NCBI RefSeq assembly: GCF_900184265.1
Contig: NZ_FXXA01000002.1
Coordinates: 3,765,983 to 3,829,982 of the forward strand
DNA from: Eggerthella timonensis
GTDB taxonomy: Bacteria > Actinomycetota > Coriobacteriia > Coriobacteriales > Eggerthellaceae
DNA length: 64,000 bases
Direction of reading: 5' to 3'
The notes under the pieces are model-generated. The model made no database searches. It worked only from the letters and a program-made list of their open reading frames with translations, and was not told the origin of the DNA. Numbering within the stretch: the first letter of the stretch is position 1; every line of letters starts with the position of its first letter. The translations under genes and the position numbers were made by a program. Below, piece by piece: positions 25,632 to 43,860 of the stretch.

Positions 25632-26087
25632 TTACCACGGTATTTCCTCGTAGGTGAGGCCCTTCTCCTCGGCCAGGTAGGCGAACAGCTCGTCGCAATC
25701 GAACACCTTGATGGACGACTTCTCGAAATCTTTCTGGTTGCGCGTGATAATGGCGTCGGCCTTCAACCTGAGCGCGCACTGGTACACGCAGGCATCCTCG
25801 AAGTCGACCCACGTGGAATCGAGCGCTGCGTCGACATCTGCCTCGCTGAAAGAACAAACGCGTACAGCAGCGCGCACTCCTTTGAGACTGCTCTTCACTT
25901 TGCTTGCAAGCGAAGGCTTTCCTCCATCAGACAGAAGATAAAATGCGTCAGCAATCTGGGAAGAACTCATCCAAAGCTCTAACTCATGAAGAAATCCCAA
26001 CATCATGAGCTTCCGCGCAGAGCTTCCGAAAGGACCGCGATCCTTCACATGATCGATGATGATGTTCGTATCAACGATAAGCTTCAT
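25632..26087 (-). CDS. PIN domain toxin (VapC-like)
   Basis: The protein has 151 residues. It starts MKLIVDTNIIIDHVKDRG with the first acidic residue of a PIN ribonuclease. A further acidic cluster lies in WVDFEDACVYQCALRLKADAIITRN, the conserved central-to-C-terminal PIN motif (Asp-x-x-Asp and TRN). It closes with FEKSSIKVFDCDELFAYL. PIN toxins cleave RNA and are held by a partner antitoxin. Its ATG overlaps the TGA of the upstream antitoxin gene (ATGA). The expected activity is inferred from the motifs. Confidence 0.88.
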   Translation of the reverse strand: MKLIVDTNIIIDHVKDRGPFGSSARKLMMLGFLHELELWMSSSQIADAFYLLSDGGKPSLASKVKSSLKGVRAAVRVCSFSEADVDAALDSTWVDFEDACVYQCALRLKADAIITRNQKDFEKSSIKVFDCDELFAYLAEEKGLTYEEIPW

Positions 26088-26404
26088 TGACCATCACCGG
26101 GATCCATAAGACCCCGAGCGATAAGGCGCTCCCGTTTCACTTCTTTCAGCGTCATATTGTCGAAACGACCGGAAACATCGGGCATCTTAATACTGTCCAC
26201 CCAGGCGATCGCCTGCGCGATTTCTTCCTGCGTGTACTTCCGTCGCCCCTGCTGCTCGGGAAACGGCAGCTGCTTCTTCTCCAGCACGTAGTCGTACAGG
26301 CGATTCACCGCTTGCGAGGCGTTCGTGCCCAACTGCTCGAGCATGCGGTTGCCCGCCTCTTTCTTCTCCGCCGACATGCGCGCCGTCACCATCGCATCAG
26401 CCAT
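26084..26404 (-). CDS. Antitoxin (RelB/DinJ-like ribbon-helix-helix) of the PIN pair
   Basis: The protein has 106 residues. The ATG at 26404 follows AGGAGG. The N-terminus (MADAMVTARMSAEKKEAGNR, then MLEQLGTNASQAVNRLYDYV) matches the RelB/DinJ RHH antitoxin pattern. The C-terminal half (TQEEIAQAIAWVDSIKMPDV and later basic residues) probably binds the toxin. It overlaps the PIN gene by 4 nt. A perfect 18-bp palindrome 13 nt upstream is the obvious autoregulatory operator. RelB/DinJ-type antitoxins more often partner RelE-type toxins, so the pairing with PIN is worth noting. Confidence 0.82.
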   Translation of the reverse strand: MADAMVTARMSAEKKEAGNRMLEQLGTNASQAVNRLYDYVLEKKQLPFPEQQGRRKYTQEEIAQAIAWVDSIKMPDVSGRFDNMTLKEVKRERLIARGLMDPGDGQ

Positions 26405-26416
26405 GCTGCACCTCCT

Positions 26417-26434
26417 ATGTTGTACGTACAACAT
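26417..26434. promoter_or_regulatory. Toxin-antitoxin operator palindrome
   Basis: ATGTTGTACGTACAACAT is a perfect 18-bp palindrome (20 bp with flanking T/A) just upstream of the antitoxin ribosome site. It fits RHH autorepression. Confidence 0.8.
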
Positions 26435-28846: not shown

Positions 28847-30517
28847 CTACTTTCCGTCGCTCGCATCCCACGGCTCGAGATCGCCTGCATGCAGCATGGC
28901 GAAATGGCCTGTGGTCAGCGCTTCAGCAATGTTTCCCAGGTTGTAGTTGCCGCCGTTCAGCGATCCGAACTCGCCCACGTTGTACAGGCGGGGAATCACC
29001 TCGTCATTCGTGTCGAGCGTCTGGTTGTGCTCGTTATGCTTGGGACCGCCCTGGGTGTTGATCATGCCCATGCCCATCTCGATGGCGTAGAACGGCCCGT
29101 CGTCGAACGCCGCCATCGTCTCGGGATCGCGTTTGAAATCGGAATCGGCGCCTGTCTCGCATAGGGCGTTCCAACGCTCCACCGTCGCCGCCAGCGCCGC
29201 GGCGTCGACGCCTTCGCACTTCGTGCCCGAAGGAGACGTACCCACCATCGCCGCAGCGAGCTCTTCGATGGTGTCGGCTTTCACGATCCACCCCTGCTCG
29301 AGCGCCCAGGCGTTCGTCCATTCCTGGCCGAGCAGCTGGTGAACGCCCGCGTACGACACGAGCGACTTCGGCTTCGTCGACTGGATGTACAGCGGTGCGG
29401 CGTCAAACGTCGCCTGGTCGAACACCATCCAGTACGGCAGGTTGGAGAATTCGTACGTGTCGGTGTCCATGTCGTACCACACCGTGCGCTTGCGCGTGTG
29501 CTGCGGCGAGTGCGATAGATTCTTCGTCTCGTTCACGAAACGCTCGCCCTTGTAGTTGACGAAGAACCACGACGAGGCGTCGGGGAAATGTCCCGCCGAC
29601 TGCATGCTCACCGAGCACCCTACCTGCTCGGATGGCAGACGGTAGCACGGCGATCCTATTTCGGAGCAGTCCATGTGCCACAGTTGCGCCCCCGCTTCCA
29701 CACACATGCGGTGGCCGTCCCCCGTGTTGTGCGGCGTGCCCCACGGGAACATATGGATACCCCAGCCGGTGTACCACTGTTGCATCATGGGATTGCCCTC
29801 GAAGCCGCCGCACGCCATGATGACGCCTTTTTTAGCCTTGATGGCGATGTCACCGCCGGAGCCTTCGGCAACGACGCCGAGGATTTCCTTCGTCTCGGGA
29901 TTCTGCACGAGGCGTTTCGCCGGCGTGGCGAGCCGGATATCGGCCCCTTTGTCGACCGCGATTTCGTGGAAGTTCCCGAACAGCTCAGAACCGCCCGCGT
30001 CGCCGCGTTCGGACCAGGCCACTTCGCCGGTCATGCGCGAGGGATCGCCGTAATCGCGCCAAACCCAGTAGATCTCGAGATCCTCGAGGGAGTCCAACCA
30101 CACGCCCGTCTCGATCTCCTGCTCGACGATGGCGGGATACAGCACGTCGCCGTCCTCCTTGCTCACCGACCCCTGGTTGAAATGCCGTAGCATCTCCACC
30201 ATGCCGTCGGCATCGTCGGGCTTCATGCAGGTTTGGATGCAGCCCGTCGCGCATCCCAGGTTGCCGCCGTCGGGCTCGCTCGACTTCTCCAGCGTGATCA
30301 CGCCCAGGCCGGCGTCCAGGCCGGTGATGGTGGCGGCCACGCCGGCCGCGCCGTACCCCACCACGACGACGTCGGTTTCCTCGTCCCACGCCTCGGGCAT
30401 CCACCACGCTTTCTGATCTTGCGATGCCGACCCGCATCCGACCAGCCCGACCGCAGCGGTTCCCACTGCCGCCAGCCCTGCGCCTTTCAAAAAACTCCGC
30501 CTGCTGAACTGTTCCAT
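28847..30517 (-). CDS. Tat-exported FAD-dependent reductase (fumarate reductase flavoprotein family)
   Basis: The protein has 556 residues. The start at 30517 follows GGAGG. The Tat signal is SRRSFLKGAG, with a following lipobox-like GLVGC. The FAD-binding Rossmann motif is DVVVVGYGAAGVAATITGLD near residue 48. The family's late active-site region (DGPFYAIEMGMGMINTQGG) and final GNYNLGNIAEALTTG are present. Such enzymes reduce an unsaturated or similar acceptor outside the membrane. The acceptor is unknown. It is co-transcribed with the hexahaem cytochrome, which would supply electrons. Confidence 0.9.
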   Translation of the reverse strand: MEQFSRRSFLKGAGLAAVGTAAVGLVGCGSASQDQKAWWMPEAWDEETDVVVVGYGAAGVAATITGLDAGLGVITLEKSSEPDGGNLGCATGCIQTCMKPDDADGMVEMLRHFNQGSVSKEDGDVLYPAIVEQEIETGVWLDSLEDLEIYWVWRDYGDPSRMTGEVAWSERGDAGGSELFGNFHEIAVDKGADIRLATPAKRLVQNPETKEILGVVAEGSGGDIAIKAKKGVIMACGGFEGNPMMQQWYTGWGIHMFPWGTPHNTGDGHRMCVEAGAQLWHMDCSEIGSPCYRLPSEQVGCSVSMQSAGHFPDASSWFFVNYKGERFVNETKNLSHSPQHTRKRTVWYDMDTDTYEFSNLPYWMVFDQATFDAAPLYIQSTKPKSLVSYAGVHQLLGQEWTNAWALEQGWIVKADTIEELAAAMVGTSPSGTKCEGVDAAALAATVERWNALCETGADSDFKRDPETMAAFDDGPFYAIEMGMGMINTQGGPKHNEHNQTLDTNDEVIPRLYNVGEFGSLNGGNYNLGNIAEALTTGHFAMLHAGDLEPWDASDGK

Positions 30518-30674
30518 CGTTCCTCCTTCGATCTGCACGGCTCATGCCGCCCTTGCGCTTTCGATAGTAGGCTCGACGCATTCGCGGCAGTCCCCCCGTT
30601 GCGGGTGGAACCGCCACCCGTTCAGCAGTGACTTTCGCGCGCCCGCCCTGACGAAGCGGGTGGAAACATGGCGC

Positions 30675-30704
30675 GAGAAAGCCCGGACAAGCCCGGGCTT
30701 TCTC
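30675..30704. terminator. Hairpin between flavoprotein gene and relic region
   Basis: GAGAAAGCCCGG and CCGGGCTTTCTC form a perfect 12-bp stem with a 6-nt loop. It may have ended the transcript of the decayed flavoprotein gene to its right. Confidence 0.5.
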
Positions 30705-30762
30705 AATGAACGTGCGCCCGCGTCCGGAGAGGGAAGGATCGCAGGCACCGAAGTGTTCTCGA

Positions 30763-30943
30763 TTATTGCAGCGTCGCCGTCTCTTTATCGCGAGTCTTGA
30801 TCTCGACCCCCGCCTCGGCCAGGCGTTGCTCTACTGCGATGCCGATGCCAGCGCTCGGCATTGCGTTCAGGACCCCCGCCAGCATTGAAGACGGAAGCCG
30901 TCAACTGGAACGCATAGTAAGGACCGTCGCCGATGGAAACTAG
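30763..30943 (-). pseudogene. Flavoprotein reductase relic (C-terminal fragment)
   Basis: On the minus strand the frame reads DGPYYAFQLTASVFNAGGGP then ERNAE. It aligns with DGPFYAIEMGMGMINTQGGP then KHNEHN of the intact flavoprotein at 28847-30517. Downstream the similarity breaks into another frame that ends at a TAA at 30763. No start or FAD-binding region remains. It abuts a LuxR relic on its upstream side. Confidence 0.6.
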
Positions 30944-31129
30944 GTCCTCAGCACCCGCGAAGAGAGCATTGCGTTTCTCGGGGCGGAAGGCAAATCGAAT
31001 GCTGATATCGCAAGCGAGCTATTCATTGCACCGGGAACCGTACGCACCCATGTGAGCCGCATCTACGCAAAACTCGATATGCACAGCCGCGAAGAATTCT
31101 TCGACTCGGTGGAGAAGCCTCGCCGGTAA
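30944..31129 (+). pseudogene. LuxR-type regulator relic (HTH domain only)
   Basis: The frame reads VLSTREESIAFLGAEGKSNA, then DIASELFIAPGTVRTHVSRI and YAKLDMHSREEFFDSV, a nearly intact LuxR helix-turn-helix, ending at TAA (31127-31129). An in-frame TAG directly precedes it (30941-30943) and no usable start codon is visible, so it is a fragment. It lies next to the flavoprotein relic. Confidence 0.7.
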
Positions 31130-31133
31130 TTCC

Positions 31134-31499
31134 CTACTTCCCGCGCACCACCGCGCCGAAGGGCAGCAGCGCCAGCTTCGCCTGCTTGAAGCACTGCAGA
31201 CCGAAGGGGATGCCGACGACGGTGATGCACAGCAGCACGCCGTTGATCAGCGCCTCAAGCGCCAAGAACACGCCGCCGAAGATGAACCACAGCACGTTGA
31301 GGACGGCCGATCCCGCGCCGCCACCGTATTCGACTTCCTTGCCGAACGGGAAGAACGCGAGCCCCGCCATCTTGAAGCACTGGGTGCCCACCGGGATGCC
31401 CACGATGGTGATGCACCACAGCAGCCCGACGAGGCACCAGCTCACGCCCTGCCAAAACCCAGCGAAGATGAACCACAGTATATTACCGATCACGCTCAT
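31134..31499 (-). CDS. YccF domain membrane protein
   Basis: The protein has 121 residues. Two repeats of the YccF motif appear: NILWFIFAGFWQGVSWCLVG, WCITIVGIPVGTQCFKMAGLAFFPFG, then NVLWFIFGGVFLALEALING, LCITVVGIPFGLQCFKQAKLALLPFG. This is the characteristic inner-membrane protein of unknown function. AAAGGA lies 8 nt before the ATG at 31499. Its start overlaps the end of the upstream gene by 17 nt, giving translational coupling. Confidence 0.9.
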   Translation of the reverse strand: MSVIGNILWFIFAGFWQGVSWCLVGLLWCITIVGIPVGTQCFKMAGLAFFPFGKEVEYGGGAGSAVLNVLWFIFGGVFLALEALINGVLLCITVVGIPFGLQCFKQAKLALLPFGAVVRGK

Positions 31500-31896
31500 G
31501 ATCATCATCCTTTCGAATGGCGTGCGCTTCTTCGGCCTCGCGTCGCGACGCGGCGCGCACGAACTCGAAGAACGCGAAGATGATAGATACGATTGTGAGA
31601 ACCGACACGATAAGCTGCGACATCGCCGTCGCATACTCAGCCTGGCTCGAATCGACCGCACCTAGAATGAGATAATACACACACCAGATCAATCCGAGCG
31701 CCAACATCAGCATGGTTATGAATTCGAGAACTGTGGACACGCGTTTCCTGAACGCCGTCGCCTTTCGCACCCGCTCTTCGCTATAGCGAAGCCCTCCCGC
31801 TTGGCGCGCCTGCGTGCGCATCTTGAAAGCACCGCCGAAAAATCCCACCACCACGCCGAGCGAAAGCGCGCAACACAGCGAATACAGCATGTCCAT
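31483..31896 (-). CDS. Three-TM membrane protein coupled to YccF gene
   Basis: The protein has 137 residues with hydrophobic segments at about residues 4-24, 57-80 and 93-113. A basic loop lies after the first, and a charged C-terminal tail (RREAEEAHAIRKDDDHERDR) at the end. No family is recognised. It overlaps the downstream YccF gene by 17 nt, suggesting the two membrane proteins are made together. It lies 6 nt downstream of the TlyA-like methyltransferase gene on the same strand, so a three-gene operon is possible. Confidence 0.7.
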   Translation of the reverse strand: MDMLYSLCCALSLGVVVGFFGGAFKMRTQARQAGGLRYSEERVRKATAFRKRVSTVLEFITMLMLALGLIWCVYYLILGAVDSSQAEYATAMSQLIVSVLTIVSIIFAFFEFVRAASRREAEEAHAIRKDDDHERDR

Positions 31897-31902
31897 AGCG
31901 TC

Positions 31903-32634
31903 CTACTCTCCGTACACCGCGCGCACGAGGTATTCCACGTTGCCCTCGGGTCCCGTGATGGGCGATTCCACCACGCCCGTCACCGCGAACCCCTCATCGA
32001 CCAGCGCCGCGCGCACCTCGTCCACCGTGCGTCGCCGCACGGCCTCGTCGCGCACCACGCCGTGCTCCGTCTCGTCGGGCCGCGACTCGAACTGCGGCTT
32101 CACCAAACCGATGAACACGGTGCCCGGCTGCGAGAAGCGCGCGAACGTGGGCGCGAGCGCCGCGAGGCCGATGAAGCTGAGGTCGGCCACGAGCACGTCG
32201 AAGGGCGCGCCCAGCTCAGCCGGGTCGGCCAGCTTGATGTTCACGCGCTCGAACACCGCCACGCGCGGATCCTGCCGCAGCTTCCACGCGAGCTGCCCGT
32301 AGTTCACGTCGACGCACGCCACGCTGGCCGCGCCGGCCTGCAGCAGGCAATCGCTGAAACCGCCGGTAGACGAGCCGATGTCCAGGCAGCGCAGGCCCTC
32401 GACACGCTGCCCGAACGCGTCGAGCGCGCCCTGCAGCTTGTGGCCGCCGCGCGACACGAAGCGCTTGCGGTTCTTCACCACGACCTCCGCGTCGGGCGCC
32501 ACCTTGAGCGCCGCGCTCGCGGCGTACACGTCGTCCACCTTCACCTCGTGAGCCAGCACGGCACGCAGCGCCGCGTCGGCATCCGCGAAGTACCCCTGCT
32601 CAACCAGCAGCGTATCAAGTCTGATCTTCTTCAT
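31903..32634 (-). CDS. TlyA-type rRNA (2'-O) methyltransferase
   Basis: The protein has 243 residues. The start is at MKKIRLDTLLVEQGYF. Residues 3-60 form an S4 RNA-binding domain. The RrmJ/FtsJ-type methyltransferase follows: KRFVSRGGHKLQGAL, the SAM motif CLDIGSSTGGFSDCLLQAGA, VACVDVNYGQLAWKLRQDPR, VADLSFIGLA and VKPQFE. TlyA methylates ribose positions of 16S and/or 23S rRNA and in mycobacteria determines capreomycin sensitivity. The longer upstream frame is excluded because it would enter the LuxR gene's 3' region. Confidence 0.92.
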   Translation of the reverse strand: MKKIRLDTLLVEQGYFADADAALRAVLAHEVKVDDVYAASAALKVAPDAEVVVKNRKRFVSRGGHKLQGALDAFGQRVEGLRCLDIGSSTGGFSDCLLQAGAASVACVDVNYGQLAWKLRQDPRVAVFERVNIKLADPAELGAPFDVLVADLSFIGLAALAPTFARFSQPGTVFIGLVKPQFESRPDETEHGVVRDEAVRRRTVDEVRAALVDEGFAVTGVVESPITGPEGNVEYLVRAVYGE

Positions 32635-40425: not shown

Positions 40426-42210
40426 TTACAGCTCTGCCAAGTCGCGACCCAACAGGTACGACAGCGTGCCGCACACGGCACCGAGGTTCTGGCCGGGCAT
40501 GACGAAGTTGTAGGTGTTGGCGTAGAAGTCGCCGGTCATGATGCCCGTGTTGTACAGGCCCTCGATGGGCGTGTCGTTCTCGTCGCACACCTGCATGTTC
40601 TCATCGGTGCGCAAGCCGCCGCACACGGTGAGGAACGTGGCGCCCGTGATCTTCGTGGCGTAGAACGGCGGCGTGGAGACGGGGAACAGGATTTCGGGAT
40701 TCACGTGGAACTGCTCGTCGAGCCCCTGTTCAGCGTATTCGTTGTACTGTTTGATGGTGGCCAGCGCCTGCTCCTGGTCGATGCCGTCCATCTGCTTCAC
40801 CAGCTCTTCGATGGTGTCGGCCTTGTAGTACGTAGCGCCTGTGCCGATGGATTGCTTGCCGTTCTCGGCGTTCTTGTCCCACGACGCGATCACCTCGTCG
40901 GGCGTGAGCGGCATGATGCCGTTCTCGTGGTCGATGCAGCATCCGAACTGCTCCCACTCGTCCTGCGTGTAGGCGTACGCCTTGTCCCACACGGCGTAGG
41001 CGGTCTTCTGAGGAAGCTGCAGCACCGAGATGGCGCCGTACGCGAAGTTCGTGCACTCGTTCTGGTAGCGCTCGCCGTGGATGTCCATGTTCAAGCCCCA
41101 GAAGTTGGAGATCACGCCGTGCGCCGGACCCGATGCGCCGCCGTTGATCATAGGCGGCACCGGGTACGTCTTCTGCCAGGCGGCGCCCACCCACAGGCCC
41201 ATCTTCTGGCCGTCGCCGGGCATGAGGCCCGAGTACACCAGTTCGGCATCGTAGTCCACGTCGCCGAACGAGAGCGCATCCTTGAAGTGCTCCCACGCCC
41301 ACGGGCTGTACTTCGCCATCATGTCGGGGTTCTTCGAGAAGTCGCCCGTGGCCAGCACCACGGCCTTGTTCGCCATGTACTTGACGTACGAGCCATCCTC
41401 GCGCTGCGCCACAACGCCCGACACGCGCCCGGTGTTGTCGTCCTCGCGGATGAGGTACTGCGCGACGGTCTTGTAATGCACCTCGCCGCCAAAATCGCCC
41501 GTGAAGATGTCGGCGTACGCCTGCGCTTCGAGCGGCGCGCCGTACAGAGCACCGAAGGGCTGCTCGTCGGTATAGAAGTTGTGCGACGCGGGCGGCACGG
41601 TGATGGTGCCGTCGGGATCGTAGTAGCCCGGCTCGAGGCAGCACTTGAGGCCTTGCTTCTCCATGTGATCGATGGTCCAGTCGATGGACTCGCCCGAATG
41701 GTTGATCCAGCGCTCCCACTTCTTCTTGTCCATAAGGTACGTGCCGGCGGTCTGCTCGGCCTTCACGATCTCGCGCGCGGTTTCGGGCGAGTAGTCGATG
41801 CCCTTAGCCTTCTGGTACTTCGACCCGATGGCGTGGTTCGAGCCGCCGCGGCTGATGGGCTTGCTGCTGGCGGAGAACACGATGACGTCGGCGCCCTGCT
41901 CGGCGGCCGACACCGCCGTGCACAGCCCGGCCATGCCCGCGCCCACCACCACGATGTCGTGCGTGATGGTCTCGGCGATGTCGGCGTCGGCCACCGGCTC
42001 GGGCGGAATCTCGAAGCTCCACTTCATGTGCTGGTAGCTGTCGGCCGTCAGCACGTCGGACGCGGCTGAGGATGCCGAGCCGGCGCTGGCAGTGCTTCCC
42101 TCGGACGCGGCGCCGCCCGAAGGCGAGCACGCGGCAAGCGCGCTTCCCGTAGCCGCCAACGCACCGGTAGCCAATGCCCCTTTGAGAAAATCTCGACGAT
42201 TCAGTTCCAT
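40426..42210 (-). CDS. Tat-exported FAD-dependent reductase (fumarate reductase flavoprotein family)
   Basis: The protein has 594 residues. AAGGAGG supports the start. The Tat signal (NRRDFLKGALATGALAATG) is followed by a lipobox-like ALAAC and a Ser/Gly/Ala linker. The Rossmann motif is HDIVVVGAGMAGLCTAVSAA near residue 85. The C-terminal region has PPFYATKITGATFLTVCGGL and NFVMPGQNLGAVCG. It reduces an unknown acceptor outside the membrane. The divergent LuxR gene 213 nt away is its likely regulator. No cytochrome gene is adjacent, unlike the 28.8 kb flavoprotein. Confidence 0.9.
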   Translation of the reverse strand: MELNRRDFLKGALATGALAATGSALAACSPSGGAASEGSTASAGSASSAASDVLTADSYQHMKWSFEIPPEPVADADIAETITHDIVVVGAGMAGLCTAVSAAEQGADVIVFSASSKPISRGGSNHAIGSKYQKAKGIDYSPETAREIVKAEQTAGTYLMDKKKWERWINHSGESIDWTIDHMEKQGLKCCLEPGYYDPDGTITVPPASHNFYTDEQPFGALYGAPLEAQAYADIFTGDFGGEVHYKTVAQYLIREDDNTGRVSGVVAQREDGSYVKYMANKAVVLATGDFSKNPDMMAKYSPWAWEHFKDALSFGDVDYDAELVYSGLMPGDGQKMGLWVGAAWQKTYPVPPMINGGASGPAHGVISNFWGLNMDIHGERYQNECTNFAYGAISVLQLPQKTAYAVWDKAYAYTQDEWEQFGCCIDHENGIMPLTPDEVIASWDKNAENGKQSIGTGATYYKADTIEELVKQMDGIDQEQALATIKQYNEYAEQGLDEQFHVNPEILFPVSTPPFYATKITGATFLTVCGGLRTDENMQVCDENDTPIEGLYNTGIMTGDFYANTYNFVMPGQNLGAVCGTLSYLLGRDLAEL

Positions 42211-42261
42211 GCGATTTCCCTCCTTGTGATCGGTTGCGGAACACGGGTCCAGTCTTGCACG

Positions 42262-42282
42262 AACGCGAGCGGCTCGCGTTCA
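42262..42282. promoter_or_regulatory. Palindrome in flavoprotein/LuxR divergent region
   Basis: GAACGCGAG, CGG, CTCGCGTTC form a perfect 9-bp inverted repeat 52 nt upstream of the flavoprotein start. It is a possible LuxR operator. The LuxR gene itself has TACAAT near 42400. Confidence 0.4.
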
Positions 42283-42423
42283 CCCGCGCCTGGTGTTTCA
42301 TGAGAAAAGGGGTCACATAGATCAGGTGAATTGCCGCTTCCGCTGATCATCGGCACGTCTTTTTGGGCATCGGCCATCGAAGCGCCGATCGATTTCGCCT
42401 ACAATAGCGTTTGGGGAGGGGTT

Positions 42424-43860
42424 ATGGCGCATACGGAGAAAACTCAGCTGTTCTTGGTGGCCACGGGGTTCGCCTGCTTTTTGGCGATGAACTCGTTTTC
42501 GCTGTGGGGCTTTTCGTTTTTGCCGCAGTTCGCGTTCGGCGCGAGCGCGCAGGACAGCTGGAGCACGCCGGTGCAGCTCAGCAACATCACCGCGTTCTTC
42601 GTGTACTTCGTAGGTTCGACGCGCTTTCCACGACTGTTCGACCGCGCACCGTTCTTCGAGGCCGTGCTGCTCATCGCGGCAGGCATGATCTTCCTGCTGG
42701 GATTCTTCGTCACGTCGTCATCCGTCATGCTGACCGTGTCGGCGATTCTCGTGGGCGTGGGAAGCACGTGCTGCTTCATCTGTTGGGAGACGGTGCTGTC
42801 GCTCAGCGAGCCGCGCGAGACGAAGAAGCAGATCATCCTGGGGTCGGTCCTGTCGCTGCTTCCCTTCGGCCTGTTCTTCGCGTTCGGCCAGGCCGGCTTG
42901 CTGTTCACCGAGTCGCTGCTGGCATTCTGCAACCTCGTCCTGCTGTTCTTCACGCTGCGGTTCGCGGGCGGTGCGCCCGTTGCGGCACCTCCCGCGACGC
43001 CGACCGAGCAAAGGTCGCCGCGCGCGCCGTCGCTCATCCGCCGTCACTTCTGGAAGCCGCTGCTGTGCATCGTCATGATCGGCGTGATCTCGCCCGTCAT
43101 CGGCTCGGTGGCGTTCTCGAACGACCTCGCGTTCTTCGAAAGCTGCGCTATCGTGTTCGCGGCGAACCTCCTATCCGCGGCCATCCTCGCTATCGTCTGG
43201 CTGGCCCTCGACAAGGAGACCACCATCTCAAGCGCGTACGTCGTGCTGTTTCCCGTGCTCATCACCGCGTTTCTGGCGTTCCCCTTCGTAGCCGAGCAGT
43301 ACCGCATCGTCGTGGTGTTCGTGGGCAGCTTCGGATTCACGCTGTTCTCCATCGTCATGATGGTGTCGTGCATCGCCATCGCGCGCGAACGCGGCCTCGG
43401 CCTCGTGTTCGTGTACGCGCTGTTCGCCGGCGTCACGTACGTGTCGCGCCTGATCGGTCAGGGTTTGGCTGCCGTGATCGGCCGCAGCTCGCTGTCGCAG
43501 GAGACGCAGATCGTGACGAGCGTGTTCGTGCTGCTGTACGGGTGCTCGTTGGTCATGTTCATCCTCGTGCGGAAAAGCGCCGCGCGACCGAAGGAGCCCG
43601 CCCCCAGCGGCATCGACGTGCTGCAGCAGGCGTGCGCGCAGTTGGCCGCCGAGCATGGGCTGTCGGCGCGCCAAGCCGAGGTGCTCGACCTGCTGGCGCA
43701 CGGCTACGACGTGCCGTCCATCGCGAAAAAGCTGTTCATCTCGGAAAACACCGTGCGCACCCACACGAAGAAGATCTACGCCCTGCTCGACGTGCATGCG
43801 AAGCAGGAGATCGTCGACCTCGTGAACGCCCGCTGCGACAGAGGCGCCGAGGACGAGTAG
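42424..43860 (+). CDS. Membrane-embedded LuxR-type regulator (12 TM + HTH)
   Basis: The protein has 478 residues. GGAGGGG precedes the ATG at 42424. About 12 membrane helices (residues 8-405) are followed by a LuxR helix-turn-helix: HGLSARQAEVLDLLAHGYDV, PSIAKKLFISENTVRTHTKK and IYALLDVHAKQEIVDLV. It is the third such regulator in the window and again stands divergent from a Tat flavoprotein gene. The membrane part may sense the reductase substrate. Confidence 0.88.
   Translation: MAHTEKTQLFLVATGFACFLAMNSFSLWGFSFLPQFAFGASAQDSWSTPVQLSNITAFFVYFVGSTRFPRLFDRAPFFEAVLLIAAGMIFLLGFFVTSSSVMLTVSAILVGVGSTCCFICWETVLSLSEPRETKKQIILGSVLSLLPFGLFFAFGQAGLLFTESLLAFCNLVLLFFTLRFAGGAPVAAPPATPTEQRSPRAPSLIRRHFWKPLLCIVMIGVISPVIGSVAFSNDLAFFESCAIVFAANLLSAAILAIVWLALDKETTISSAYVVLFPVLITAFLAFPFVAEQYRIVVVFVGSFGFTLFSIVMMVSCIAIARERGLGLVFVYALFAGVTYVSRLIGQGLAAVIGRSSLSQETQIVTSVFVLLYGCSLVMFILVRKSAARPKEPAPSGIDVLQQACAQLAAEHGLSARQAEVLDLLAHGYDVPSIAKKLFISENTVRTHTKKIYALLDVHAKQEIVDLVNARCDRGAEDE

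Follow-up and report, generated by a model that had tools for sequence, protein, structure and literature searches.

The window analysed here is the whole 64,000-nucleotide stretch of Eggerthella timonensis DNA (contig NZ_FXXA01000002.1, 3765983-3829982). Its positions 30763-31129 are most probably what erosion has left of a single divergent pair, a flavin reductase with a membrane LuxR, whose former place was between the YccF gene and the flavoprotein gene 28847-30538. A flavoprotein block on the minus strand (30854-30952; E 1e-8) abuts a LuxR-type (GerE) helix-turn-helix (HTH) remnant on the plus strand (30944-31129; E 1.8e-16), at the place where an earlier reading of the letters (the sequence-only reading) had put them. 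The two matches meet at 30944-30952, within about 9 bp, and the order flavoprotein (minus)/LuxR (plus) fits a divergent pair, as that reading had also claimed. Both pieces are remnants, and neither is able to yield a working protein. They are enclosed by two intact minus-strand genes: on the left the FAD_binding_2 flavoprotein at 28847-30538 (Pfam FAD_binding_2, E 8.5e-38), and on the right YccF at 31134-31499 (Pfam YccF, E 4.3e-40), whose stop codon lies 4 bp past that of the LuxR remnant.

The LuxR remnant consists of 61 codons followed by a TAA at 31127-31129, and its match to Pfam GerE covers positions 30944-31126 of the plus strand. A TAG at 30941-30943, directly before the remnant, closes the frame. 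The sequence-only reading had named transcription of the fragment with a start codon as evidence that would speak against it; a scan of the frame for ATG, GTG and TTG finds the first of them in the GTG at 31052, which already lies within the HTH. Of the features of LuxR regulators with 10-12 transmembrane helices, the C-terminal GerE HTH is present, and the N-terminal membrane domain with its 10-12 helices is absent; the DNA upstream of the remnant is flavoprotein sequence on the opposite strand.

The flavoprotein block comprises 33 codons around GPYYA...GGP, and the residues matched on the minus strand of 30854-30952 are AEDLVSIGDGPYYAFQLTASVFNAGGGPERNAE. The profile that detects it, A2, was built on 12 intact flavoproteins, with the window gene 28847-30538 included and the relic excluded, and was run against the 1207 stop-to-stop fragments that the whole window yields at a length of 20 or more amino acids. 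Intact flavoproteins take the first three places, with 636, 209 and 189 bits; the relic block is fourth with 30.7 bits, and the next fragment, at 6.8 bits, marks the noise level, leaving the block as the sole fragment above noise besides the three intact proteins. Its identity to intact homologues reaches 17/32 residues. All 12 aligned flavoproteins have T in NTQGG, where the relic has A, a change that fits decay. The description of this fragment as C-terminal in the sequence-only reading has to be corrected: for all but one of the 12 aligned proteins the best match lies inside residues 447-538, and these 11 proteins are 550-694 residues long and carry 52 to 174 residues beyond the matched block, while the twelfth profile member (L163:7075-9156) gives a weak match only, at 617-640. 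The residues expected C-terminal of the block are missing in the relic. The piece is therefore near the C-terminus of its parent, internal, and without a true C-terminal end. In addition, the N-terminal FAD-binding region and a complete domain are absent in all six frames of 30664-31132. The relic is recognisable as sequence of this family, but it is no functional member of FAD_binding_2.

Next to this block lie 29 further minus-strand codons (30766-30853), followed by a TAA stop at 30763-30765, in a minus frame that differs from that of the block. They give no match to the flavoprotein profiles and none to any Pfam family, and in a search of 138 family genomes (one genome per species) their best non-self match has E 0.225. 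By eye, a mid-domain flavoprotein piece is plausible, and it was rejected for want of flavoprotein profile support. The codons might instead close a C-terminal FMN_bind domain, which is likewise plausible by eye; the profile of FMN_bind C-termini gives them 1.9 bits, a score reached by 225 of 2000 shuffles and hence no better than shuffled sequence. Further to the left, a strong hairpin of 13 pairs (30674-30705) lies inside the segment that is absent from the congeners. The minus-strand fold of 30660-30770 (111 nt) has an energy of -47.4 kcal/mol (z -3.8), equalled by 0 of 200 shuffles. The hairpin was not called in a scan for consensus terminators; it may once have served the lost flavoprotein gene as its terminator.

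The same interval was compared in three congeners (G001, G002 and G003), the letters of the flanks being compared by eye. Synteny stops at 30663 and resumes at 31133, at the end of YccF, leaving a 469-bp segment (30664-31132) that is unique to the window genome; the left flank, 28847-30663, is 96% identical in G001 and G003, as is the DNA of the left neighbour. In these two genomes the interval measures approximately 3.6 kb and contains a flavoprotein and a LuxR gene in co-directional (+,+) arrangement (L023 3926-7435 and L024 4186-7693, respectively). G002 carries the same (+,+) pair and, between that pair and YccF, an additional LuxR(-)/flavoprotein(+) pair. The congeners thus resemble the relic in having a flavoprotein and a LuxR between its two neighbours, but their pair is co-directional. 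The sequence-only reading had predicted an intact pair between the flavoprotein and YccF in related genomes; a pair does stand there in the congeners, whereas the predicted orthologous, divergent one was not found. The LuxR of the (+,+) pair is whole in G003 (L024 6254-7693, 479 aa) and in G002 (L025 2049-3422, 457 aa); in G001 (L023 5994-7196) its frame is broken before the HTH, which is either a second, younger decay in the same interval or a sequencing error.

The locus records the loss of reductase-regulator pairs in the window lineage, and on this point the sequence-only reading is borne out: both the (+,+) pair and a pair situated between YccF and an FtsJ-like gene are present in all three congeners and missing from the window genome. 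The (+,+) flavoprotein, with the G002 protein as query, is 90% identical in G001 and G003, and its best homologue in the window genome reaches 36%. The flavoprotein of the YccF/FtsJ-like interval is 91-100% identical among G001, G002 and G003, and its best homologue in the window genome, at 61%, lies elsewhere in the genome. Because related genes are found beside YccF in G006 and G026 (as read from their translations), the absence of the latter from the window is most simply explained by loss. Judged by identity in the FtsJ-like region, G002 stands furthest from the window genome among the congeners (90% versus 95-96%), and on that ground loss in the window lineage appears to be the simpler reading for the (+,+) pair too. 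In the window, 6 bp (31896-31903) separate a small gene (31483-31896) from the FtsJ-like gene, whose stop is at 31903, and the loss of the YccF/FtsJ-like pair has left no visible remnant here, in contrast to the relic. In G026 (L027 3620-7461), a relative of that pair sits on the other side of YccF, which suggests that modules change sides around a fixed set of conserved genes. Two small genes of the minus strand overlap at 25632-26434 of the window, close to the edge of the variable region; by eye they resemble a PIN-domain toxin with its antitoxin.

Searches of 138 family genomes with each piece, and of 119 with the DNA, gave no intact orthologue of the pair; each species is represented by one genome, and other strains may have kept it. 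The HTH peptide matches 123 of the 138 genomes at E 1e-8 (own genome included; best listed non-self identity 60%), as the commonness of the GerE domain leads one to expect; a scan of genome contigs with the HTH likewise gave 51 loci, at most 60% identical and with no orthologue, most of them in other phyla, GerE domains being widespread. The flavoprotein block matches 30 of the 138 genomes at E 0.01 (own included), the best listed non-self match being 56% identical over 25 residues. With the DNA of 30720-31135, matches were obtained in 36 of the 119 family genomes, own included, and among the matches listed all non-self ones fall within the HTH part.

Intact divergent pairs with the order flavoprotein(-) LuxR(+) do occur: in the window itself at 40426-43860, elsewhere in the genome (L171) and in relatives (L172 and L169). 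The sequence-only reading had compared the relic with the window pair at 40.4-43.9 kb, and that comparison is correct as to kind and order; as a source of the relic the pair fails, with 25/55 identical residues in the LuxR HTH and a best local flavoprotein match of 7/21, and it is a relative of kind only. The L169 pair (G099:C1, about 2090594-2094006) has the order and orientation of the relic, with 31/51 identical residues in the HTH and 14/30 in the flavoprotein block; it belongs to a different genus and is a relative of kind, not an orthologue. The (+,+) pair of the congeners was rejected as the parent on its wrong orientation, its unrelated DNA and a best local flavoprotein match to the relic block of 4/9. 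Two further candidates were rejected: the LuxR(-)/flavoprotein(+) pair next to YccF in G002, which has the opposite orientation, an HTH identity of 22/53 and a flavoprotein identity of 5/22, and a LuxR gene of G023, on the other side and in a different neighbourhood, at approximately 7.3 kb from the FtsJ-like gene. Since the orientation of pairs in the family varies (divergent, convergent and co-directional ones are all found), the relic is the only guide to the parental layout. What remains of order and strands in the relic fits a divergent pair, but neither gene has kept its 5' end, and the genomes searched gave no intact pair orthologous to it.

Based on this layout, a deletion of approximately 2.8-3.0 kb, a size estimated from the intact divergent pairs, would have joined the late reductase frame to the DNA-binding domain of the LuxR regulator. 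Most of the reductase, the intergenic promoter region and the N-terminal domain of the regulator would have been lost in this step; with the layout of L171, L172 or L169, the deletion would span from reductase residue ~450-510 to regulator residue ~400-440. The sequence-only reading proposed that a single deletion gives exactly this relic, which is too simple, because the flavoprotein has lost its 3' part as well or has had it replaced. The absence of the reductase tail, together with the 29 codons in another frame, implies at least one further deletion or rearrangement beyond the gene-joining one, and this second event would have removed or scrambled the tail. The identities of the two pieces, their order and abutment, the missing start and the missing parts are observed directly; that the parents were one pair, how much was deleted and in which order the events came are inferred from these remains. 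Against this reading count the failure to find an intact orthologue in the genomes searched, the variable orientation of pairs in the family, the shortness of the flavoprotein piece (33 codons) and codons 30766-30853, which are left without explanation.

The position of the segment would also agree with another origin, in which fragments from different genes were united by recombination at a cassette-exchange hotspot, the 469 bp replacing the 3.6-kb pair in already broken form: segment 30664-31132 sits exactly where G001 and G003 carry the other pair, with sharp edges in conserved flanks, and the pairs found beside YccF are not the same in the window genome, G001/G003, G002, G006 and G026. We consider this origin unlikely, since the order and close abutment are those expected of a divergent pair, such pairs occur in the window and in related genomes, no donor sequence was matched in plasmids or phages, and the genus yielded no second copy. 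An origin from a mobile element was rejected, as there is neither a plasmid or phage match nor a tRNA in the window. A broader proposal, which we regard as possible though doubtful, is that recombination in conserved flanking genes exchanges or removes whole reductase-regulator modules in the YccF/FtsJ-like region, making it a hotspot, and that the relic is the scar of a failed or decayed exchange.

The remaining alternatives are far less probable than a decayed pair. The HTH frame runs for 61 codons without a stop and scores strongly for GerE, and a strong hairpin is nearby. The LuxR fragment might still yield a small DNA-binding protein, or the region might act as a regulatory RNA; this is very improbable, given that no start codon precedes the GTG within the HTH, that a TAG stands just upstream, that a scan of 30400-31900 detected no promoter-like site, and that nothing in the window matches Rfam. 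It is equally hard to credit an assembly or sequencing artefact joining two distant genes. The genome (3,916,897 bases) is in two contigs, and the Eggerthella timonensis genome was published as a draft (PMC6182555); however, the flanks are collinear with G001 and G003 on both sides at 95-96% identity, and searches of the rest of the window genome gave neither fragment in intact form.

The relic can be compared with systems described in Eggerthella lenta. E. lenta DSM 2243 is reported to have 83 transmembrane LuxRs, of which 50 are near flavin-dependent enzymes (PMC9734109). In that system a flavin-dependent enzyme lies near a LuxR whose GerE domain is C-terminal to a 10-12-transmembrane domain, and the relic belongs to the same two families; it differs in that only the GerE end and 33 enzyme codons are left, without the membrane domain, the start and the N-terminal FAD-binding part. 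A limited literature search found no papers on such relics, which is weak evidence. The relic is a dead member of this published kind of gene pair, an ordinary trace of gene loss in a quickly turning-over family of paired genes, and it opens no new mechanism. Its value is that of a sequence-level record of pair loss, in which enzyme and regulator vanish together via their facing side. For the respiratory reductases of E. lenta, a preprint (PMC13060105) reports that most of the enzymes, taken singly, show enrichment or depletion between two lineages, and that the mobile elements it identified carry none of them. These enzymes are of the same superfamily as that of the relic (COG1053). The preprint deals with presence and absence within E. 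lenta, whereas the relic is the physical remnant of one loss in another species, and this suggests that a further species of Eggerthella shares in the variation reported for the lineages of E. lenta.
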